In this document: piece after piece, positions 39,923 through 50,442 of the stretch
Numbering within the stretch: the stretch's first letter is position 1
Layout: each line of letters begins with the position of its first letter
DNA from: Fulvivirga imtechensis AK7
Lineage (GTDB): Bacteria > Bacteroidota > Bacteroidia > Cytophagales > Cyclobacteriaceae
Length of the DNA stretch: 64,000 nt
Assembly: GCF_000331535.1 (NCBI RefSeq)
Contig: NZ_AMZN01000048.1
Coordinates: forward strand, 1-64,000
Reading direction: 5' to 3'
Program-made: the position numbers and the translations under genes
The notes under the pieces: generated by a model
The model's input: only the letters and a program-made list of their open reading frames with translations
What the model was told of the DNA's origin: nothing
Databases searched by the model: none

Positions 39923-42001
39923 ATGAAATTAAGTGATTTTAATCTTCGTCATGCTATATTGGCTTTTGGTGTAGGTGCGTTTGTAGCAGCCTGCACATCT
40001 GCAGAAGATGGTAAGTCTGACAGTGAAGCGGTGGTAGGGATCAACACTAGTTATATAGACTCTACTGTCCGGCCTTCTGATGATTTCTTTCGTTTTGTTA
40101 ACGGAAAATGGATTGACCAGACTGAAATTCCCGGTGACCAGGGTCGATGGGGCAGCTTCAATGAGCTGAGAGAAATGACTAATGAAACCGTACTTTCAGT
40201 ACTTGAAACAGCAGGTAAAAGCAACAAATACGGAGAAGGTACCGACCAGAAAAAAGCTACGGATTTTTATGCTATAGGTATGGATTCCCTCTTAGCAGAA
40301 AGAGTTGGTGCTCAGCCGCTGCAGCCTTATTTCGATAAAATAGGGCAGATCTCTGATGCCGGTGACCTTCAGAAATATCTTTCCGAGCAACAGACCTATG
40401 GAGGAGGCGCTTTTTTCAACTTTGCAGTATTTCCTGACCTGAAAAACAGCAAGGTGATGGCTACGTATCTGGGCCAGGGAGGCCTGGGACTTCCTGACAG
40501 AGATTATTATACCAAAATAGACTCAAAATCTCAGGAGATCAGAGATAAATATGTGAAGCATATAGCCAGAATGCTAACCCTGGCTGGCGATGAACCACAA
40601 ATGGCTGCCGATCAGGCTGCCAGGATCATGGCCTTAGAGACCCGGTTAGCCGAAGCATCAATGACAAATGTGGAGCGGAGGAATATTCCTGCTCTATACA
40701 ATAAAAGATCATTAACGGAATTGGCTGAACTGGCACCCTCCATTGATTGGGGGCAGTACCTCGAAGATATGGACGTGACCGGTATTGATACGCTGATCGT
40801 TATGCAGCCTGAGTTCATAGCTGAATTTCAAAAAATAACGGAAGAAGTGCCTGTTGCTGTGTGGAAAGAATACTTGCGTTGGAGACTTGTTGATGGTACA
40901 GCAGGATTTCTGAGCAACGAATTTGTTCAGGCCAATTTTGAATTTTATAGCAAAGAATTACGTGGTGTGGAAGAAATGCAGCCACGATGGAAAAGAGTTT
41001 TGGCTACCACAAACGGCTCACTTGGGGAAGCTATAGGGAAGCTATATGTAGATGAAAAATTTCCACCTGAGGCCAAGACTAAGGCACAGGAAATGGTAGA
41101 GAATATTAAACTGGCTTTTGCTGACAGGATCAAAAAGCTGGATTGGATGTCGGATTCCACCAAGGAGAAGGCACTGGAGAAATTGAAAACAATGACGGTG
41201 AAGATCGGTTATCCCGATGAGTGGCGCGATTACTCAGGCTTGATGGTAGAGGGTGATCCTGAAAAATCATCTTATATCCAGAATGTGCTGAACGCTTCGA
41301 AATTCGGATTTGAATACCAGATCAGTAAAATAGGCAAACCCGTGGACAAGAAGGAATGGGGCATGTCGCCACAGACGGTGAACGCCTATTTCAACCCCTT
41401 GTTTAATGAAATTGTATTTCCCGCAGCCATATTACAACCTCCTTTTTACAACTACAAAGCTGACATGGCAGTTAACTATGGTGGTATAGGCGCTGTCATT
41501 GGTCATGAGATCTCACATTGTTTTGATGACCAGGGCAGCAGATTTGATGCGGAAGGCAATTTGAAAAACTGGTGGACAGAGAAAGATGCAGAGAGCTTTA
41601 AGGCCAGAACGGGTCAGTTGGTGGCCCAGTATGATGCATATGAGCCGCTGGATAGCGTCCGGGTAAATGGCGCCTTTACACTCGGTGAAAATATTGGAGA
41701 CCTGGGAGGTGTAAGTGCTGCTTATGATGGCTTGCAACGCCACCTGGCCGAGCATGGTAATCCCGGCCTTATCGATGGCATGACCCCGGAACAGAGATTT
41801 TTTGTTTCGTGGGCTACTATTTGGAGGATCAAGTATAAAAATGAGACGCTGCGCACTCAGGTCAATACAGACCCTCATTCACCGGGCATGTATCGTGCCA
41901 ACGGCCCGCTTGCTAACCTGGAGACGTTCTACCAGGCGTTTAATGTTCAACCAGGTGATGGCATGTACCGGGCAGATAGTGTTAGAGTAAAGATTTGGTA
42001 A
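39923..42001 (+). CDS. M13 family metallopeptidase (PepO/neprilysin-like) lipoprotein
   Basis: The 692 residues begin with a lipoprotein signal ending FVAAC (Cys24). The N-terminal M13 domain contains TVRPSDDFFRFVNGKWI. The C-terminal catalytic domain has the zinc motif HEISH (528-532) and the second signature ENIGDLGG (Glu589). NAYFNPLFNEIVFPAAILQPPF is the substrate-binding region typical of the family. It should degrade peptides in the periplasm or at the outer membrane. A strong hairpin follows the stop. Confidence 0.95.
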   Translation: MKLSDFNLRHAILAFGVGAFVAACTSAEDGKSDSEAVVGINTSYIDSTVRPSDDFFRFVNGKWIDQTEIPGDQGRWGSFNELREMTNETVLSVLETAGKSNKYGEGTDQKKATDFYAIGMDSLLAERVGAQPLQPYFDKIGQISDAGDLQKYLSEQQTYGGGAFFNFAVFPDLKNSKVMATYLGQGGLGLPDRDYYTKIDSKSQEIRDKYVKHIARMLTLAGDEPQMAADQAARIMALETRLAEASMTNVERRNIPALYNKRSLTELAELAPSIDWGQYLEDMDVTGIDTLIVMQPEFIAEFQKITEEVPVAVWKEYLRWRLVDGTAGFLSNEFVQANFEFYSKELRGVEEMQPRWKRVLATTNGSLGEAIGKLYVDEKFPPEAKTKAQEMVENIKLAFADRIKKLDWMSDSTKEKALEKLKTMTVKIGYPDEWRDYSGLMVEGDPEKSSYIQNVLNASKFGFEYQISKIGKPVDKKEWGMSPQTVNAYFNPLFNEIVFPAAILQPPFYNYKADMAVNYGGIGAVIGHEISHCFDDQGSRFDAEGNLKNWWTEKDAESFKARTGQLVAQYDAYEPLDSVRVNGAFTLGENIGDLGGVSAAYDGLQRHLAEHGNPGLIDGMTPEQRFFVSWATIWRIKYKNETLRTQVNTDPHSPGMYRANGPLANLETFYQAFNVQPGDGMYRADSVRVKIW

Positions 42002-42009
42002 TATTTTTA

Positions 42010-42047
42010 AACTTTATTAAACTTGTTTAAACGAGTTTAATAAAGTT
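42010..42047 (+). terminator. Hairpin terminator after the M13 peptidase
   Basis: AACTTTATTAAACT (42010-42023) pairs perfectly with AGTTTAATAAAGTT (42034-42047), followed by ATTTTAAT. It is AT-rich but 14 bp long. Confidence 0.65.
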
Positions 42048-42065
42048 ATTTTAATCAATATCTAT

Positions 42066-42230
42066 ATGGGAAAAGGAGATAAAAAGACTAAACGAGGAAA
42101 GATCGCCATGGGTACCTTCGGAGTTTCCAGACCCAGGCCGAGTACTGGAAAAGGCAAGAATACTTCAGTGGCCGGAGAGCTAAATGAAGAGCCAAAGACC
42201 CGAAAAGCAGGGCCGTCAAAAAAGAAATAA
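42066..42230 (+). CDS. 30S ribosomal protein THX
   Basis: This 54-residue, strongly basic protein begins MGKGDKKTKRGKIAMGTFG followed by VSRPRP. The pattern MGKGDKK(S/T)xRGKIxxGTYG is the hallmark of THX, a small ribosomal protein that sits in the head of the 30S subunit in Thermus and some other lineages. The ATG lies shortly after the peptidase terminator; the trp promoter begins about 10 bases after its stop. Confidence 0.9.
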   Translation: MGKGDKKTKRGKIAMGTFGVSRPRPSTGKGKNTSVAGELNEEPKTRKAGPSKKK

Positions 42231-42239
42231 TTTTTTTTG

Positions 42240-42270
42240 TTTGCTTTTAAGTTTTCCTTTTATACTTTTG
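42240..42270 (+). promoter_or_regulatory. Promoter of the trp leader and operon
   Basis: TTTG (42240-42243), 19 bases, then TACTTTTG (42263-42270): the same spacing as the act operon promoter. The leader peptide ATG begins at 42279, only 9 bases after the -7 element, so its mRNA would have almost no 5' untranslated sequence. Confidence 0.75.
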
Positions 42271-42278
42271 ATCTGAAT

Positions 42279-42332
42279 ATGAAAAACAATTTCTTTAATA
42301 GCGCATGGTGGTGGCACTTTACTAAACTGTAA
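42279..42332 (+). CDS. Trp leader peptide 1
   Basis: A 17-codon frame reads MKNNFFNSAWWWHFTKL and stops. Three consecutive TGG codons (42306-42314) are the sensing element: ribosome stalling here at low charged tRNA-Trp exposes the antiterminator. An intrinsic terminator and competing antiterminator follow directly, and trpE lies downstream. Confidence 0.9.
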   Translation: MKNNFFNSAWWWHFTKL

Positions 42333-42334
42333 AG

Positions 42335-42409
42335 GAACAGCGTTATTGTAGATTTGAAATAGATCAAAGACATTTTAAGCCCGCTGTTCTCCAACAGCGG
42401 GCTTTTTTA
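42335..42409 (+). terminator. Trp attenuator 1 (antiterminator and intrinsic terminator)
   Basis: Terminator: AGCCCGCTGTT (42378-42388) pairs with AACAGCGGGCT (42393-42403), loop CTCC, then TTTTTTAT. Antiterminator: GAACAGCG (42335-42342), just past the leader stop, is perfectly complementary to CGCTGTTC (42382-42389) in the terminator 5' arm. The two structures exclude each other, the classical transcription attenuation design. Confidence 0.9.
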
Positions 42410-42432
42410 TTATCGATTTACGGGTATATAAA

Positions 42433-42495
42433 ATGACAATATTCATAGCAAAAACAACTAAAGCATGGTGGTGGCACTTTAATCATTTCCAATGA
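42433..42495 (+). CDS. Trp leader peptide 2
   Basis: A second leader of 20 codons starts at ATG 42433 and contains the same AWWWHF with three TGG codons (42466-42474), ending at TGA 42493-42495. No separate promoter is evident between the first terminator and this ATG, so it is reached by transcripts that escape attenuator 1. Confidence 0.88.
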   Translation: MTIFIAKTTKAWWWHFNHFQ

Positions 42496-42558
42496 TGAGC
42501 AGTATCGCTATGCCAAATTTTAAAGGGCTTGCTGTTCATCCGGCAGGCCCTTTTTTAT
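42494..42558 (+). terminator. Trp attenuator 2 (antiterminator and intrinsic terminator)
   Basis: Terminator: AAGGGCTTGC (42523-42532) pairs with GCAGGCCCTT (42543-42552) with one G-U pair, then TTTTTATTT. Antiterminator: GATGAGCAG (42494-42502), overlapping the leader stop codon, pairs with CTGTTCATC (42532-42540) with one G-U pair. The design repeats that of attenuator 1 but the stem sequences differ. Confidence 0.85.
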
Positions 42559-42585
42559 TTAATAATGATTTGTAAACAACTAAAA

Positions 42586-43989
42586 ATGAAACGATTTACC
42601 TTAAAAACGAATACCAAAAAGCTGCTGGCGGATATGCTTACACCAGTGAGTATCTATCTAAGGCTGAGAGATAAATTTTCGGAAAGTATTCTTCTCGAAA
42701 GTTCGGATTATCATGGTACCGACAATAGCTTTTCCTATATCTGTTGCTCCCCCATAGCTTCTTTTGAGGTGAAAAAGGGACAGTTGCAGGTGGTATATCC
42801 GGGAGGGGATGTGCAACAAAAGGAGGTAACAAGGGAAAATATTCTGTCGGAGCTCGATGCTTTCCGCTCTGCGTTTGATTCGGAACCTACCGAACACAAA
42901 TTCGTGACCAATGGCCTGTTTGGTTACATGGCATATGATGGTATTAAATTTTTTGAAGATATTGAGATAAGCCAGGTAAACGATGTTATCCCCGATATCA
43001 TCTACAGGGTGTACAAGTACGTTATTGTTATAGATCACTTCAGGAATGAGCTTTACCTTTTTGAACATAAGGTGGAGGAGTTGGAGAAAAAGGGTAGTCT
43101 GGGATACCTGGAATCCCTCATTAAGGTAAATAATAACCCTCAGTTTGATTTTACACTTCAGGGTAAAGAACAGTCGAACTACACAGATGAAGAGTTTCTT
43201 CAGATCCTGACCAAAGGCCGGTCGCACTGCTTACGTGGTGATGTGTTCCAGATAGTATTATCAAGGAGGTTCCAAAGCAAGTTTTCAGGTGATGAATTCA
43301 ATGTTTACCGTGCCCTGAGGTCTATCAATCCTTCACCATATCTCTTCTACTTCGACTATGGCAGTTTCAAGATCTTTGGATCATCCCCCGAATCACAAAT
43401 AGTGATAAAAGGAAAGCAGGCGAGCATATATCCAATTGCAGGCACGTTTAAACGCACCGGCAATGACTCCGCTGATGCTGACCTTGCCCGGGAGCTGGCT
43501 GCCGATGAAAAGGAAAACTCAGAGCATGTGATGCTCGTTGACCTGGCCAGGAATGACCTGAGTAGAAGCTCGGAGAAGGTGGAAGTGGAGGTTTTTAAAG
43601 AGATACAATATTATTCTCATGTGATCCACCTCGTGAGTAAAGTCACCGGACAGCTTGCAGCACAATCATCACCACTAAAGCTTGTTGCGGATACCTTTCC
43701 TGCCGGCACCTTGTCCGGAGCGCCCAAACACATGGCCATGCAACTGATCGACAGGTATGAAAATATCAGCCGAAACTACTATGGAGGGGCTATAGGTTTC
43801 ATGGGATTCAACGGAGATTTTAACCATGCCATTATGATCAGGTCTTTTTTGAGCAAAGACAATACGCTGCACTATCAGGCCGGGGCAGGTGTGGTGGCCA
43901 AATCACTGCCCAACAGTGAATTGCAAGAAGTAAATAACAAGCTTGCGGCTTTAAGAAAGGCATTGGAAATGGCACAGAGACTGAACTAG
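42586..43989 (+). CDS. trpE: Anthranilate synthase component I
   Basis: The start at ATG 42586 (MKRFTLKTNTKKLL) gives 467 residues; an earlier in-frame start at 42529 lies inside the terminator stem and is rejected. TrpE makes anthranilate from chorismate with ammonia from TrpG. Visible motifs are LLESSDYHG (the tryptophan feedback region), GDVFQIVLSRRF, PIAGTFKRTG, VDLARNDLSR, TFPAGTLSGAPK and YYGGAIGFM with the final QAGAGVV. It is the first structural gene of the operon. Confidence 0.97.
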   Translation: MKRFTLKTNTKKLLADMLTPVSIYLRLRDKFSESILLESSDYHGTDNSFSYICCSPIASFEVKKGQLQVVYPGGDVQQKEVTRENILSELDAFRSAFDSEPTEHKFVTNGLFGYMAYDGIKFFEDIEISQVNDVIPDIIYRVYKYVIVIDHFRNELYLFEHKVEELEKKGSLGYLESLIKVNNNPQFDFTLQGKEQSNYTDEEFLQILTKGRSHCLRGDVFQIVLSRRFQSKFSGDEFNVYRALRSINPSPYLFYFDYGSFKIFGSSPESQIVIKGKQASIYPIAGTFKRTGNDSADADLARELAADEKENSEHVMLVDLARNDLSRSSEKVEVEVFKEIQYYSHVIHLVSKVTGQLAAQSSPLKLVADTFPAGTLSGAPKHMAMQLIDRYENISRNYYGGAIGFMGFNGDFNHAIMIRSFLSKDNTLHYQAGAGVVAKSLPNSELQEVNNKLAALRKALEMAQRLN

Positions 43990-43996
43990 AGCAACT

Positions 43997-44572
43997 ATGA
44001 AAAACATATTACTACTCGATAATTACGATTCATTTACCTATAACCTGGTACATATCATCAGAGAATTAGGGCATGCAGATCACCTGGATGTGATCCGTAA
44101 CGATAAAATATTGCTGGAAGAGGTAGCCAGGTATGATAAGGTACTGATCTCTCCGGGGCCCGGAATACCCGATGAGGCAGGCATCCTTAAAGCGCTGGTG
44201 AAAAGATATGCATCAACCAAGAGCATTCTGGGTGTTTGCCTCGGCTTGCAGGGCATAGCGGAAGTTTTTGGCTGTGAGCTTTATAACATGTTCACAGTGT
44301 TGCATGGAGTGGCGAGCAATATCACAGTGCAAGACCCGGAAGATTACATTTTCACAAATATCCCTCCGCAGTTTAAAGCCTGCCACTACCATAGCTGGGC
44401 TGTGCTGCCCGAGTCCGTCAATGGGGCTTTGAAAGTGACCGCCCTGGACGAACATAACAATATCATGGGACTTAGCCATGTGCAATATGATGTGAAAGGG
44501 CTTCAGTTTCACCCGGAATCAATTCTGACAGAGCATGGCAAATTAATGATCGAAAACTGGTTAAAAAATTAA
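43997..44572 (+). CDS. trpG: Anthranilate synthase component II (glutamine amidotransferase)
   Basis: The 191 residues show the class I amidotransferase triad region: LLDNYDSFTYNL, SPGPGIPDEAG, the nucleophile Cys81 in GVCLGLQG, and FHPES near the C-terminus. It supplies ammonia to TrpE. It starts 7 bases after trpE and is followed after 4 bases by trpD; it is a separate gene, not fused to trpD as in enterics. Confidence 0.96.
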   Translation: MKNILLLDNYDSFTYNLVHIIRELGHADHLDVIRNDKILLEEVARYDKVLISPGPGIPDEAGILKALVKRYASTKSILGVCLGLQGIAEVFGCELYNMFTVLHGVASNITVQDPEDYIFTNIPPQFKACHYHSWAVLPESVNGALKVTALDEHNNIMGLSHVQYDVKGLQFHPESILTEHGKLMIENWLKN

Positions 44573-44576
44573 AGAT

Positions 44577-45587
44577 ATGAAGGATATTTTAAACAAACTG
44601 ATAGAACATAAGTCGCTGGACAAAGAGCTTTCGCGCCAGATACTGCTGGAGCTGGCACAAGGTAAATACAATAACAGCCAGGTAGCCGCTTTTCTGACGG
44701 TATACATGATGAGGAGCATCACTGTTGATGAGCTGGAGGGGTTTCGTGATGCCATGTTGGAGCTGTGCCTGTCTGTTCCGATAGATGAATATGATGCCAT
44801 CGACCTTTGTGGAACGGGTGGGGATGGAAAGGATACTTTCAATATATCCACACTGGCTTCTTTTGTGGTTGCCGGAGCCGGACAGAACGTAGCTAAACAT
44901 GGCAATAATGGAGTGTCTTCTGTTTGCGGGTCGTCCAATTTGCTGGCGCATTTTGGCTATGAGTTCACCAATGATATTGGCGAACTAAAAAGAAGTCTGG
45001 ATCAGGCTAACATTTGCTTTCTTCATGCACCGCTATTTCATCCGGCCATGAAAAATGTAGCCCCTATACGTCAGGAGCTTGGAGTGAAAACCTTTTTTAA
45101 TATGCTGGGTCCTATGGTAAACCCGTCTTTCCCTAAAAAACAACTGGTAGGGGTTTTTAGCCTGGAACTGGCCAGGTTGTATGGCTATCTCTATCAAAAA
45201 ACTGATAAGGATTTTATTATCCTGCACACCCTGGATGGGTATGATGAGGTGTCCCTGACTGGCAGATTTAAGATGATCTCTAATCAGGGAGAGCAAGTGC
45301 TGGGACCGGAGGACCTGGGGCTGCAGACCGTAAAACGACAGGAAATATCAGGAGGGAAGACAGTTGAAGAATCTGCTAAAACTTTTGATCAAATATTGAA
45401 AGGACAGGGTACATCTGCTCAGAATGCCGTGGTTATCGCCAATGCCGGTATGGCATTGTATAGTGCTAACCGGGAAGCCGGGTTGGACTATTGCATCAAT
45501 AAGGCTGAAGAATCCCTGCTGTCAGGCCGGGCATTAAAGGCTTTCCAAAGGTTAATTAGTAGGAAAAAAATATACACAATTGCTTAG
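44577..45587 (+). CDS. trpD: Anthranilate phosphoribosyltransferase
   Basis: The 336-residue enzyme joins anthranilate to PRPP. The conserved DLCGTGGDGKDTFNIST, KHGNNGVSS and RQELGVKTFFNMLGPMVNP are present. The stop codon TAG (45585-45587) is immediately followed by copy 2 of the nested-hairpin repeat, which separates this gene from trpC. Confidence 0.96.
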   Translation: MKDILNKLIEHKSLDKELSRQILLELAQGKYNNSQVAAFLTVYMMRSITVDELEGFRDAMLELCLSVPIDEYDAIDLCGTGGDGKDTFNISTLASFVVAGAGQNVAKHGNNGVSSVCGSSNLLAHFGYEFTNDIGELKRSLDQANICFLHAPLFHPAMKNVAPIRQELGVKTFFNMLGPMVNPSFPKKQLVGVFSLELARLYGYLYQKTDKDFIILHTLDGYDEVSLTGRFKMISNQGEQVLGPEDLGLQTVKRQEISGGKTVEESAKTFDQILKGQGTSAQNAVVIANAGMALYSANREAGLDYCINKAEESLLSGRALKAFQRLISRKKIYTIA

Positions 45588-45805: not shown

Positions 45806-45840
45806 ACAAGTTGTGACCATTGAAAATAAATTACATACAC

Positions 45841-46653
45841 ATGAATATTCTGGAAGAAATAATAGCGCATAAAAAGAAAGAGATAGCCGAGAGAAAAAGT
45901 CTGTTTCCAACAAAACTCCTGGAGCAGAGCATTTACTTTGCAGGCACTCCGGTCTCGCTGAAAAAATATATACTACGAGAGGATAAATCAGGGATCATTG
46001 CCGAGTTTAAAAGGAAGTCACCTTCTAAAGGAATTATTAATTCCAATGCCGCAGTAGAGAAGGTTTCCATTGGCTATATGCAGGCAGGGGCCTCTGCTTT
46101 GTCAATTCTTACGGATACTCAATATTTTGGAGGTAGGAGCGAAGACCTGACTGTAGCAAGGAAATTTAACTTTTGCCCTATACTTCGAAAGGACTTCATC
46201 ATTGATGAATACCAGATAATAGAAGCCAAGTCCATTGGAGCAGATGTGATTTTGCTTATTGCTGCCGTATTAGAAGAACCGGAAGTAGAACGGCTTGCGA
46301 AATTTGCCCGTTCGTTGGGCCTTGAGGTGCTGCTCGAGGTGCATAATGAGCAGGAACTATCCGCCATCAATCCTTATGTGGATCTTGTGGGGGTCAACAA
46401 TAGGGACCTGACCACTTTTAAGGTGGACCTGGCTACATCAGTGGCTTTATCGGAGCTGATCCCTGGTGATTTTGTAAAGGTGTCAGAAAGCGGTATCCAT
46501 ACCCCTGAAGATATTGTGGAGCTTAAAAAACATGGGTTTAATGGTTTCCTGATCGGCGAACGGTTTATGCAAAACAGCCGGCCGGAAAAAGCATGTGCCG
46601 GTTTTATAGAGCGACTAAGTGAAATAGAAGAAAGGGATTATGCCAAAGCTTAA
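45841..46653 (+). CDS. trpC: Indole-3-glycerol phosphate synthase
   Basis: Starting at ATG 45841 (MNILEEIIAHKKKEIAERKS) the enzyme is 270 residues. Hallmarks are IIAEFKRKSPSKG, ALSILTDTQYFGG, LRKDFIIDEYQI, VGVNNRDLTTFKVD, KVSESGI and GFLIGERFM. The last 14 bases overlap trpF. Confidence 0.96.
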   Translation: MNILEEIIAHKKKEIAERKSLFPTKLLEQSIYFAGTPVSLKKYILREDKSGIIAEFKRKSPSKGIINSNAAVEKVSIGYMQAGASALSILTDTQYFGGRSEDLTVARKFNFCPILRKDFIIDEYQIIEAKSIGADVILLIAAVLEEPEVERLAKFARSLGLEVLLEVHNEQELSAINPYVDLVGVNNRDLTTFKVDLATSVALSELIPGDFVKVSESGIHTPEDIVELKKHGFNGFLIGERFMQNSRPEKACAGFIERLSEIEERDYAKA

Positions 46654-47293
46654 TAATATCCGTCTGAAAATCTGCGGCCTGAGAGATAATATCTCCGAAG
46701 TAGTTGACCTCCAGCCCGACTATGCAGGTTTTATTTTTTATGACCGGTCACCGCGTTGTATGGCTACCAGAGTTGCTGCTGAGCAGGTAAAAGCTATTCC
46801 GGACACCGTGGCTAAGGTGGGGGTTTTTGTTAACCAGTCGCTGGGAGAGGTTTGTTCCACGGTAAAGGAATTTGACTTGCAGTATGTTCAACTTCATGGA
46901 GTTGAGAATGTGAATTATTGTAAAAGGCTACATGCCGAGGAGGTAAAGATTATCAAAGTGTTTTCAGGAAATGAAGACCTCAATGAACAATTGCTAGATC
47001 AATATGCCCCTTTTATTGATTTTTATCTGTTTGACACGCGTACGGATAAACCTGGAGGAACCGGAGAAAAATTTAATTGGGAGAAACTAAGACATTTTGA
47101 TCTTCAAAAACCGGTTTTTCTCAGCGGGGGTATTGATTTGGACAATATCGGTGAAATTGAATCGCTGGACTTCGGGCTTCATGCCATAGACGTCAACAGC
47201 AGGTTCGAGGTAGAGCCGGGTTTGAAAAATATAGATTTATTAAAAAAGCTGAAGAATAAGATGAAATCTGTTCTTCAGAAGGAAAAGCATTAA
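46640..47293 (+). CDS. trpF: Phosphoribosylanthranilate isomerase
   Basis: The 217 residues have KICGLRD (catalytic Cys), [37 protein letters not shown] and VFLSGGID. The start lies within the trpC end (14-base overlap) and trpB follows after 4 bases. Confidence 0.95.
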
Positions 47294-47297
47294 AAAT

Positions 47298-48479
47298 ATG
47301 AGTTATCTAGTAGACAAAAATGGTTATTACGGGCAGTTTGGAGGGGCTTTTATTCCCGAGATGCTGCATCCAAATGTGGAAGAATTAAAGGAGAATTACC
47401 TTCAGATAATAGAAGCTCGGGAATTTCAGGAGGAATTTGCTCAGTTGCTGCGGGATTATGTGGGAAGGCCCACACCATTGTATTTTGCTCACCGCCTTTC
47501 TGAGCATCACAATGCGAAAATATATCTGAAAAGAGAGGACCTGTGCCATACCGGAGCCCACAAGGTAAATAATACTATCGGACAGATCATACTGGCCAAA
47601 AAGCTGGGAAAGAACAAGGTCATTGCCGAGACCGGTGCCGGTCAGCACGGGGTAGCCACAGCTACGGTTTGTGCACTGATGGGCATGGAATGCGTTGTAT
47701 ATATGGGCAAAATAGATATGGAAAGGCAACGCCCCAATGTTGAGCGCATGAGAATACTTGGTGCCACAGTAGTACCTGCCACCAGTGGTAGCCAAACGCT
47801 TAAAGATGCAACCAACGAAGCCATGCGCCACTGGATCAGTAATCCTTTGGACACACATTATATCATTGGGTCGGTAGTGGGGCCACATCCCTATCCCGAT
47901 ATGGTGGCACGCTTTCAAAGTGTGATCAGTGAGGAAATGAAACTGCAACTCAAGGCAGCAACTGGCAATGAAGAACCTAATTACGTGATTGCCTGTGTTG
48001 GTGGCGGAAGCAATGCTGCAGGGGCTTTCTATCACTATCTTGATGCTGAAGAGGTAAAACTGGTAGCCGTAGAGGCAGCCGGGAAGGGAATAAATAGCGG
48101 AGAGTCTGCGGCCACTTGTGTGCTTGGTAAGGCAGGAGTGCTTCATGGAAGTAAAACCCTACTGATGCAAACAGAAGATGGGCAGGTAATAGAGCCGTAT
48201 TCTATTTCCGCAGGTCTGGATTATCCTGGAATAGGGCCCATGCACGCACATTTGTTTGAAACCGGACGGGTGAAATTTGAAAATGCAACCGATGAAGAGG
48301 CTATGCTTGCAGGCATTGAGTTGAGCCGCCTGGAGGGTATTATTCCGGCTATTGAATCAGCCCACGCACTGGCAGCGCTTAGTAAAATAAGCTTTAAACC
48401 GGACGATGTTGTAGTCGTTAATCTTTCCGGCCGTGGCGATAAGGATCTGGAGACATATATAAGATGGGGGAAGTACTAG
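47298..48479 (+). CDS. trpB: Tryptophan synthase beta chain
   Basis: The 393-residue PLP enzyme shows [19 protein letters not shown], the PLP lysine in [33 protein letters not shown] and the C-terminal SGRGDKD. It condenses indole with serine. The stop is followed by a heptamer array before trpA. Confidence 0.97.
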
Positions 48480-48637: not shown

Positions 48638-49435
48638 ATGAATATAAAAGTTACGAACAGAATAAATGAATTATTTGAACACAAGAAGTCCGGAATATTG
48701 TCGGTCTATTACACGGCCGGGTTTCCGAAGCTTAACGATACACTTGATATTGCACGACACCTGCAGGCAGCCGGGGCAGATCTCATTGAGATCGGCATAC
48801 CATTTTCAGACCCGGTGGCAGATGGACCTACAATTCAGCAAAGCAACAAACAGGCGCTCGACAACGGTATGACCTTGAAATTGTTGTTTAGCCAGTTGGA
48901 GGAGCTGAGACAGCACGTACAGATACCGGTTATCATGATGGGATATATCAATCCGGTGATACAATTTGGTGTCGATAACTTTTGCAAGGCGTGTGAAAAG
49001 TGTGGCATAGATGGATTGATACTGCCGGATTTGCCTATTAAGGAGTATGTAGCGGACTACAAGGATAAATTTGAGGCCCATGGGCTCAGGAATATCTTCC
49101 TTATCACCCCCCAAACCGCTGAATCCCGGATCAGGGAGATTGATGAACAGTCTGATGGCTTTATTTATATGGTGTCATCGGCCAGTACTACTGGTGCCAA
49201 AGCACACGTTGTGCAGGATCAGATAGCATATTTTCAACGGGTAAGAGCTATGCAACTCAAAAACCAGACACTCGTTGGGTTTGGGATCAGCAATAAGGAA
49301 ACTTTTGAAACGGCTGTCCAGAACAGCAATGGCGCCATTATAGGAAGTGCTTTTATCAACCTGCTGGAAAAAAGTGTTGATCTGGAAAAAGATATTAAAT
49401 CATTTGTAGAAGCAATTAAAGGGTTAAGTTCATGA
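48638..49435 (+). CDS. trpA: Tryptophan synthase alpha chain
   Basis: The 265 residues contain YYTAGFP, DLIEIGIPFSDPVADGP (catalytic Glu and Asp), GIDGLILPDLPI, VSSASTTGA and VGFGISN. It releases indole from indole-glycerol phosphate for TrpB. Its stop overlaps the next gene by 4 bases. Confidence 0.96.
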   Translation: MNIKVTNRINELFEHKKSGILSVYYTAGFPKLNDTLDIARHLQAAGADLIEIGIPFSDPVADGPTIQQSNKQALDNGMTLKLLFSQLEELRQHVQIPVIMMGYINPVIQFGVDNFCKACEKCGIDGLILPDLPIKEYVADYKDKFEAHGLRNIFLITPQTAESRIREIDEQSDGFIYMVSSASTTGAKAHVVQDQIAYFQRVRAMQLKNQTLVGFGISNKETFETAVQNSNGAIIGSAFINLLEKSVDLEKDIKSFVEAIKGLSS

Positions 49436-50442
49436 TAGTGCAATTAAAAAAGGGGCTTGATGATCAGTATAAACAGGAAATTATTGATAAGATCAATGAC
49501 CTTAAATACAAAACTACCGAGGTAAACACCCAAAAAGGTGATTATATCATTGGCATTGGGAGAACAGACTTTGACATCCGCCAGATCGGGCAATTGCCGG
49601 GTATTGCAGATATCCACCGCGTTTCTGATGACTATAAGCTGGTTTCACGGAAGTGGAAGGTGAAACCTGCCACTATTGATCTGGGAGATGGCATATTGGT
49701 AAAAGAAGGAAGTCTCTCTATTATGGCAGGCCCATGTTCCATAGAGGGGGAGGAACAAATTGAGAAGACGATCAGGCATTTGAAAACTAATAATGTTAAA
49801 ATTATGCGGGGAGGTGTTTACAAGCCGAGGAGTTCGCCTTACTCCTTTAGGGGGCTTGGTATTGAGGGTTTAAAGACCTGGTTCAAAGCTGCCAGAGAAG
49901 CAGGTATAAAAATTATTACGGAGGTGATGCAGGTATCGCAGATAGAAGAGATGTACGACTATATAGATATTTACCAGGTAGGAGCGAGGAATACACAAAA
50001 CTTTAACCTTTTGGATGAGCTAGGGAGGGTAGATAAGCCAGTACTCATAAAAAGAGGTATATCAGGTACCATTGATGAACTGTTATACTCGGCTGAATAT
50101 GTTTTCTCCGCAGGTAATGAAAATCTTATGCTATGTGAGAGAGGAATAAGGACCTACGAAAGAGCCAGTAGGAATACGATGGATATCAATGCCATCCCCA
50201 TTTTAAAAGAGAAGACTCACCTGCCGGTCATTGCTGATCCGTCACATGGTATTGGTATTCGCGACCATGTGGAGCCGGTGGCCCTGGCTTGCATAATAGC
50301 AGGCGCCGATGGAGTGATCTATGAGACGCATGAAAAGCCGCATGAAGCATTTTCTGATGGGCAACAGACGCTGAATTTCAATGAGTCGGAAAAGCTTATT
50401 CATAAAATGAGAAAAGTTTTTGAGCTCAGGGAATCGATGTAA
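49432..50442 (+). CDS. 3-deoxy-7-phosphoheptulonate synthase (type I-beta DAHP synthase)
   Basis: The 336-residue protein has an N-terminal ferredoxin-like regulatory domain (~1-70) and a KDPH/KDO8P-type TIM barrel: SIMAGPCSIE, RGGVYKPRSSPYSFRG, QVGARNTQNF, LIKRGISGT, RGIRTYE and IADPSHGIG. It commits PEP and erythrose-4-phosphate to the shikimate pathway. Translational coupling to trpA (ATGA) puts it under the trp attenuators. Confidence 0.94.
   Translation: MIVQLKKGLDDQYKQEIIDKINDLKYKTTEVNTQKGDYIIGIGRTDFDIRQIGQLPGIADIHRVSDDYKLVSRKWKVKPATIDLGDGILVKEGSLSIMAGPCSIEGEEQIEKTIRHLKTNNVKIMRGGVYKPRSSPYSFRGLGIEGLKTWFKAAREAGIKIITEVMQVSQIEEMYDYIDIYQVGARNTQNFNLLDELGRVDKPVLIKRGISGTIDELLYSAEYVFSAGNENLMLCERGIRTYERASRNTMDINAIPILKEKTHLPVIADPSHGIGIRDHVEPVALACIIAGADGVIYETHEKPHEAFSDGQQTLNFNESEKLIHKMRKVFELRESM

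Follow-up and report, generated by a model that had tools for sequence, protein, structure and literature searches.

In the textbook trp attenuator a single leader is paired with a single terminator, and TrpR supplies the remaining dynamic range; T-boxes bind tRNA directly. Sensors of the latter class are known in pairs: tandem T-boxes lie before trp operons of Bacillota, trp is given as having, of all pathways, the most significant regulation by contiguous riboswitches, and tandem T-box use before trp genes is reported to be exclusive to Bacillota (PMC12452182). In Salmonella mgtCBR, attenuators that sense proline and ATP have been described as a singular case that lacks the two intrinsic terminator sites of the metE leader (PMC3641672). 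Within Bacteroidota, attenuation by leader peptides ahead of amino-acid operons is reported to be strongly indicated in Flavobacterium psychrophilum (PMC9723704). Here we describe a stretch of 64,000 nucleotides from the marine bacterium Fulvivirga imtechensis AK7 (contig NZ_AMZN01000048.1, positions 1 to 64,000; the window), in which two complete tryptophan (Trp) leader units precede one trp operon and very probably act as ribosome-mediated attenuators in series behind a single promoter, with their read-through multiplying. Among the open-licence papers listed by our literature searches, several of which gave their best 12 to 25 matches, we found no earlier description of two leader-peptide attenuators for the same amino acid in series.

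The two units, each a Trp leader open reading frame (ORF) with an intrinsic terminator and a competing antiterminator, span 42279-42553, directly before trpEGDCFBA; the units, their promoter elements, the trp genes and the upstream neighbour gene all lie on the forward strand of the window. Leader ORF 1 (42279-42332) reads MKNNFFNSAWWWHFTKL and then a stop, and leader ORF 2 (42433-42495) reads MTIFIAKTTKAWWWHFNHFQ and then a stop. The first is conserved in relatives, and the second has a counterpart in three of them (G197, G199 and G205; G codes denote compared genomes, with G000 for that of the window, and L codes denote loci). A first-pass annotation of the stretch had recognized two complete attenuators here, with AWWWHF and three consecutive Trp codons in each leader, and we read these codons at 42306-42314 and 42466-42474; the string AWWWHF itself was not found in the open-licence literature. 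With zero mismatches, the core TGGTGGTGGCAYTTY occurs at exactly two sites in the 6.74 Mb genome, both at this locus, and one mismatch adds seven further sites. Each leader is followed by an uninterrupted, GC-rich terminator hairpin and a T-run, at 42377-42404 (12 pairs) and 42522-42553 (13 pairs including G-U), and a terminator scan of 1601 bases returned four terminator-like sites against 1.5 expected. The antiterminator pairings written out in the annotation are correct base for base: 42335-42342 pairs with 42382-42389 in eight of eight Watson-Crick pairs, with a G-U pair extending the helix to 42334/42390 (upstream strand 42334-42342), and 42494-42502 pairs with 42532-42540 in nine pairs including one G-U, extending to 42504/42530 (upstream strand 42494-42504). 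Folding of both leaders, which had been proposed as a check, gave z-scores of -4.5 for unit 1 and -5.1 for unit 2, with none of 200 shuffles equally stable in either case.

The arrangement resembles the enteric trpL attenuator in its short ORF with consecutive Trp codons, its antiterminator opposed to an intrinsic terminator and its position directly before trpE, and differs in that two complete copies stand in series, TrpR is undetected, leader 1 is predicted to be almost leaderless and the score of the Rfam Trp_leader family is below gathering (RF00513, 30.5 versus 41 bits for unit 1, with unit 2 unlisted, in a scan of 41500-43500). The tandem T-boxes are closest in logic, the same tRNA being sensed twice before the same operon, although here the sensor would be the translating ribosome, and T-box is absent among the 18 Rfam matches up to an E-value of 5 in 41500-43500. 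A match to PyrR in the Rfam results (34.9 bits, gathering 54) and other sub-threshold matches were set aside as terminator look-alikes. As described, mgtCBR likewise combines two leader ORFs and attenuation within one transcript, and differs in that Trp would be the signal for both units here and that every unit has a terminator of its own. The F. psychrophilum attenuators share the leader-peptide type and the phylum; doubled units do not figure in the account of them in PMC9723704.

A TrpE search gave matches in 189 of 196 genomes of the family and in every one of the 15 genomes examined from Fulvivirga, and the trpE upstream regions were taken from places among the TrpE matches listed. The 161 upstreams analysed are 157 picked from these match lists (11 of them tandem) and four from Marivirga-like genomes, which entered on account of matching a tandem pattern; because the contig of G196 begins inside trpE it was left out, and 14 Fulvivirga upstreams were usable. 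A unit was called where a hairpin and T-run came after a short ORF containing WW or WxW. Of the 161 upstreams, 160 have one or more Trp leaders with a terminator (one unit in 145, two in 15, none in that of G002), compared with no units in 483 dinucleotide-shuffled upstreams and one in 161 reverse strands. Nearly all members of the family thus have a Trp attenuator ahead of trpE, with one unit as the common and probably the older state. The upstream of G002 (L112) is the sole one among the 161 without a recognizable Trp leader. In L041 (G076) the leader, translated by eye, reads VWHWYF, with a His splitting the Trp codons; it too lies before trpE and adjoins a THX-like gene.

Tandem units are present in seven of the 14 Fulvivirga upstreams (G000, G197, G199, G205, G107, G198 and G201), in four of 143 outside Fulvivirga in the TrpE-chosen set (G075, G080, G157 and G011), and, from the tandem-pattern scan, in G055, G116, G148 and G170, which are four of the four genomes of one further genus in the order sample. 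The two leader peptides encoded in G148 match those of Marivirga aurantiaca exactly, and G199 corresponds to Fulvivirga marina by its leader sequence. The annotation had named conservation of only one leader in relatives as a result that would count against it, and on this the genus is split, with both leaders in seven of 14 and one leader in the other seven; the second unit is therefore lineage-specific. In L084 (G201) approximately 130 extra bases lie between terminator 1 and leader 2; they carry an inverted repeat, of which a near copy also follows terminator 2, and resemble a REP-type insertion between the attenuators.

Both units are common to the window and three Fulvivirga relatives (G197, G199 and G205) whose TrpE is 83% identical, and the spacer between the units has decayed, so that the proposal of a duplication that is not recent stands. 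Across these four genomes, 72% of columns are invariant in leader 1 and 57% in hairpin 1, which is partly misaligned there, with 48% in leader 2 and 75% in hairpin 2. The spacer from hairpin 1 to leader 2 retains 18% (4/22), versus 46-75% in the leader, linker and terminator parts; the interval from hairpin 2 to trpE retains 41% (11/27) and the first 40 bases of trpE 65%. The terminators also vary in a concerted manner, with compensatory, both-side changes in four of 12 pairs of terminator 1 and six of 12 of terminator 2. For the terminator together with the 1:2 (protector) helix, 95.7% of cells are paired in the 14 first or only units of Fulvivirga, with five pairs altered on both sides (a count reached by 4/500 shuffles), and 82.8% in 11 second units (seven from Fulvivirga, four Marivirga-like), with seven pairs altered on both sides (1/500). 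Terminator 2 alone is paired in 97.7% of cells in the latter set, and the 1:2 helix of unit 1 in 92.9% of cells. The seven-pair core of antiterminator 1 is kept in 99% of cells in the 14 Fulvivirga units and that of antiterminator 2 in 79% in the 11 unit-2 sequences. In a measure independent of alignment, no more than five of 100 shuffles equal the real antiterminator complementarity for 133 of the 145 single units, 10 of the 15 first units and 11 of the 15 second ones.

A single promoter motif precedes the pair. The -33 TTTG and -7 TAnnTTTG elements described for Bacteroidetes (PMC7366714, PMC9723704), the latter placed at -12 to -5 (PMC9723704), have candidates here at 42240-42243 (TTTG; the element as described in PMC7366714) and 42263-42270 (TACTTTTG), with transcription predicted to start near 42275. 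At a distance of 12-75 bases upstream of the Trp codons, TAnnTTTG is present in 14 of the 15 first units, none of the 15 second units and 85 of the 145 single ones, against 27 of 790 control windows. Since the motif precedes leader 1 in nearly every tandem locus and leader 2 in none, one promoter before leader 1 with two attenuators in series is the layout that we hold to be very likely. These same counts bear on whether leader 2 might have its own promoter, inside or after terminator 1, such that the two units would act in parallel on separate transcripts. The AT-richness of the spacer leaves room for a second start, as does the limited power of promoter scans, the sigma-70 scan having also missed the promoter of leader 1 (its single match in the region is on the opposite strand inside trpE); against a second start are the absence of TAnnTTTG before leader 2 in all 15 tandem loci and the lack of conservation in the spacer, and we regard parallel transcription as very improbable.

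The motif also lies close to the first leader. From its end to the start codon there are 4-8 bases in the 14 tandem first units with the motif and a median of nine in single units with the motif, so that the predicted 5' leader is 0-4 bases in those 14 tandem loci and approximately four for leader 1 of the window (42263-42279). The trp leader peptides here may thus be translated from nearly leaderless RNA, in a phylum where short 5' leaders are reported as rare: 3.7% of 5' untranslated regions are under 10 bases in PMC7366714, and 5.5% are leaderless in PMC9723704.

With two attenuators in series, one promoter just 5' of leader 1 would drive the trp operon through both. In either unit, the arrival of a ribosome at the stop codon would mask the upstream strand of the antiterminator, allowing the terminator to form and transcription to end, and a ribosome stalled on the Trp codons would leave this strand free to pair with the 5' arm and loop of the terminator, allowing the polymerase to pass. 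As the polymerase would have to pass both units, total read-through would be the product of the two, and the expected outcome is a deeper shut-off in plentiful Trp and a larger dynamic range from attenuation alone. Constrained folding of nascent RNA is consistent with such a switch. For the window, a ribosome on the Trp codons leaves nine and 11 antiterminator pairs in units 1 and 2, and a ribosome at the stop codon leaves none; without a ribosome, the nascent state has eight antiterminator pairs in unit 1 and none in unit 2. The difference between the stalled and stop states exceeds three antiterminator pairs in 30 of 30 tandem units, and a stricter test (at least five pairs when stalled and at most two at the stop) is passed by 12 of 15 first, 15 of 15 second and 127 of 145 single units.

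Several results weigh against serial attenuation of this kind. Unit 1 opens without a ribosome and therefore needs a ribosome at the stop codon to close it, and full-length folds favour the terminator in every ribosome state, so that the switch would rely on co-transcriptional folding and timing, which are crudely modelled here. Since the best complement was taken as the strand to be tested, the difference between states alone is informative, and the folding result at the stop is partly geometric. The proposed 1:2 helix of unit 2 is unconserved (57.1% of cells paired). For antiterminator 2, both-side changes are not in excess, 469 of 500 shuffles reaching the count; antiterminator 1 hardly varies (30/500), and further pair types in the 14 first or only units are not above shuffles (485/500). 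The antiterminator score is no better than that of shuffles in five of 15 first and four of 15 second units, and half of the 14 Fulvivirga manage with one unit. These last two points would also be expected if one unit works and the other is a decaying relic of the duplication, and the weakest antiterminators are weak indeed, with shuffles as good in 64 (G075, first unit), 28 (G199, second), 24 (G080, first) and 21 (G170, first) of 100. Four Fulvivirga nevertheless keep both units despite a largely scrambled spacer between them, both terminators carry compensatory changes, and the antiterminators of the window both score well, with two (unit 1) and one (unit 2) of 100 shuffles as good. We therefore think it unlikely, by a wide margin, that either unit is a relic.

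The ribosome-free folds raise the further question of whether the two units are alike. A near-leaderless leader 1 that is open by default, followed by an internally initiated leader 2 that is closed by default, would let the pair sense both Trp-tRNA charging and the capacity for translation starts. In G000, G197, G199 and G205 the ribosome-free antiterminator pairs number 8.4, 8.6, 7.8 and 10.4 for unit 1 and 2.6, 0, 0 and 0 for unit 2, and the very short 5' leader predicted for unit 1 in the 14 tandem loci with the motif points the same way. G080 and G157 show the opposite order; without a ribosome, the two units are alike open in G107, G198, G201 and G011 and alike closed in G170, G148, G116 and G055, and G075 lies in between. 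Given this variety of combinations, unequal gates would at best be a trait of one Fulvivirga clade, and we consider them an improbable explanation of the doubling, although less so than a relic.

What two equivalent units in series would gain was explored with a race model, whose parameters are assumed. Going from one unit to two raised the fold range from 12.5 to 156 and the maximal log gain from 1.87 to 3.75, and moved the normalized steepness from 2.72 to 2.87. The annotation had expected multiplied repression and a steeper response to charged tRNA. The former would follow from the series layout; the latter survives as a doubled log gain, with the normalized steepness of this toy model barely changed. 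In the model, a larger range thus follows from the layout and a sharper threshold hardly does. The sensitivity of a single attenuator, by way of its control codons and synchronized starts, has been modelled previously (PMC1183508). Starts should be better synchronized where the leader ORF begins right at the 5' end.

We also considered why the AWWWHF core is conserved, for which the annotation had offered selection on the peptide as one option. From 175 units we excluded 10 without TGGTGG and 49 of the remaining 165 without GAAC or GAGC, and of the 116 left, 85 have CAC or CAT after the Trp run. The codons after Trp pair with the bases leading into GAAC at a mean of 67.5% of the first seven positions, and sliding the partner by one to three bases left at most 44.6% paired. 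Given that the CAC or CAT bases pair with the stretch preceding GAAC, RNA pairing rather than peptide function explains at least some of the conservation of the His, and of the codons after Trp more generally; peptide selection is thereby only one option. The hairpin formed by the post-Trp codons and the pre-GAAC bases is supported family-wide, and tandem first units fit its register poorly. The freedom of the peptide sequence to vary outside the Trp core bears on another proposal, in which the terminated leader RNAs or peptides would also act in trans and doubling would yield two products. In Sinorhizobium, rnTrpL is the leader RNA of peTrpL. The leader peptide peTrpL provides a precedent for trans action (PMC7298713), and with the peptides so free to vary we give this explanation the least credence of all, as scarcely probable.

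How often attenuators in series have arisen can be judged from a tree and from pattern scans. On the best tree of TrpE from 45 of the analysed genomes, picked to include all 15 tandem ones, the tandem state requires five changes, of which well-supported branches force three, with the caveats that trpE may have moved between genomes and that some long branches are unsure. The tandem pattern requires WWW twice at fixed spacing. A narrower first version matched three of the 10 tandem loci then known and was widened from their gaps; judged by gaps, the widened pattern covers seven of these 10 and misses G107, G075 and G201. Counts from it are therefore lower bounds. An order-wide scan of 390 genomes gave at least 11 matches, five of them real, and an even sample of 395 genomes across the phylum gave four, with G000 the sole true case; the other three (G215, G681 and G762) fail the ORF test. 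In a sample of the Pseudoalteromonas family, four of 147 genomes match, and each of the four has a TrpE match alongside its two short leaders. Among named genomes, a scan returned at least 118 loci, and at least 19 of them contain a pair of short WWW ORFs and a pair of terminators: 12 from Pseudoalteromonas, three from Marivirga, one each from Fulvivirga marina, Ichthyobacteriaceae and Prolixibacteraceae, and one doubtful. A TrpE match lies within 16 of these 19 loci among the matches listed; the three without one are L145 and L191, where the locus stops within approximately 950 bases past the first leader, and the doubtful L214. The last, from Verrucomicrobiota, had passed the ORF-plus-hairpin filter and was rejected for its TTG starts and its lack of a TrpE match. 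L150, from Bacteroidales, pairs a good unit with a poor second one and was not counted. The Pseudoalteromonas tandem records among the matches listed are L140, L141, L145, L147, L153, L172, L178, L191, L195, L226, L245 and L246, ten of the 12 with a TrpE match. Judged by these scans, the Pseudoalteromonas units apparently represent an independent origin in another phylum, and the double form, uncommon but recurrent, looks like a control that has evolved repeatedly.

Neither TrpR nor TRAP (PF02081) was detected in the genome of the window, the Bacillus subtilis positive control for TRAP being detected. TrpR was likewise undetected in eight of eight genomes behind tandem loci (five of them Pseudoalteromonas) and in all 147 genomes of the Pseudoalteromonas family sample. 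The idea that tandem units replace TrpR was rejected on these grounds: absence of TrpR fails to explain doubling because the Pseudoalteromonas family, which is mostly non-tandem (four of 147 with the pattern), also lacks detectable TrpR. A more ambitious formulation is that serial, ribosome-mediated attenuation by the same signal recurs without TrpR and is convergent in at least two phyla as the counterpart, in translation, of tandem T-boxes, with the gates of at least one Fulvivirga clade made unlike by selection (the first leaderless and open by default, the second internally started and closed by default) and computing tRNA charging times initiation capacity; we regard this combination as improbable.

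Close relatives thus carry single and double versions of one attenuator before the same operon, which would allow a clean comparison of what a second attenuator buys in range, leak, threshold and noise. The arrangement would form a counterpart, based on translation, to the tandem T-boxes of Bacillota, which suggests a recurrent preference of tryptophan operons for stacked sensors. It also draws attention to leader peptides whose start codons would lie almost at the 5' end of the mRNA.

Downstream of the attenuators, trpE (42586-43989), encoding anthranilate synthase component I, scores 413.3 bits with TIGR00564 (trpE_most), below the cut-off of 517.7, and precedes trpG-D-C-F-B-A. Scores over the respective cut-offs identify trpG (43997-44572; TIGR00566), trpD (44577-45587; TIGR01245), trpC (45841-46653; NF001377), trpB (47298-48479; TIGR00263) and trpA (48638-49435; TIGR00262). 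The trpC ORF is listed from a TTG at 45820, and the ATG at 45841 is the likelier start. For trpF (46640-47293), all 13 matches are to phosphoribosylanthranilate isomerase models or fusions, none of them above its cut-off. The last gene in the run (49432-50442) encodes 3-deoxy-7-phosphoheptulonate synthase (DAHP synthase; NF006421, over its cut-off). The upstream neighbour of the attenuators is a gene for a 30S ribosomal protein THX-like product (42066-42230; NCBIfam TIGR04560, 54.6 bits, cut-off 26). Farther upstream, an uninterrupted, AT-rich inverted repeat of 17 pairs at 42010-42047 lies directly 3' of a gene for a PepO-like peptidase and is perhaps its terminator.

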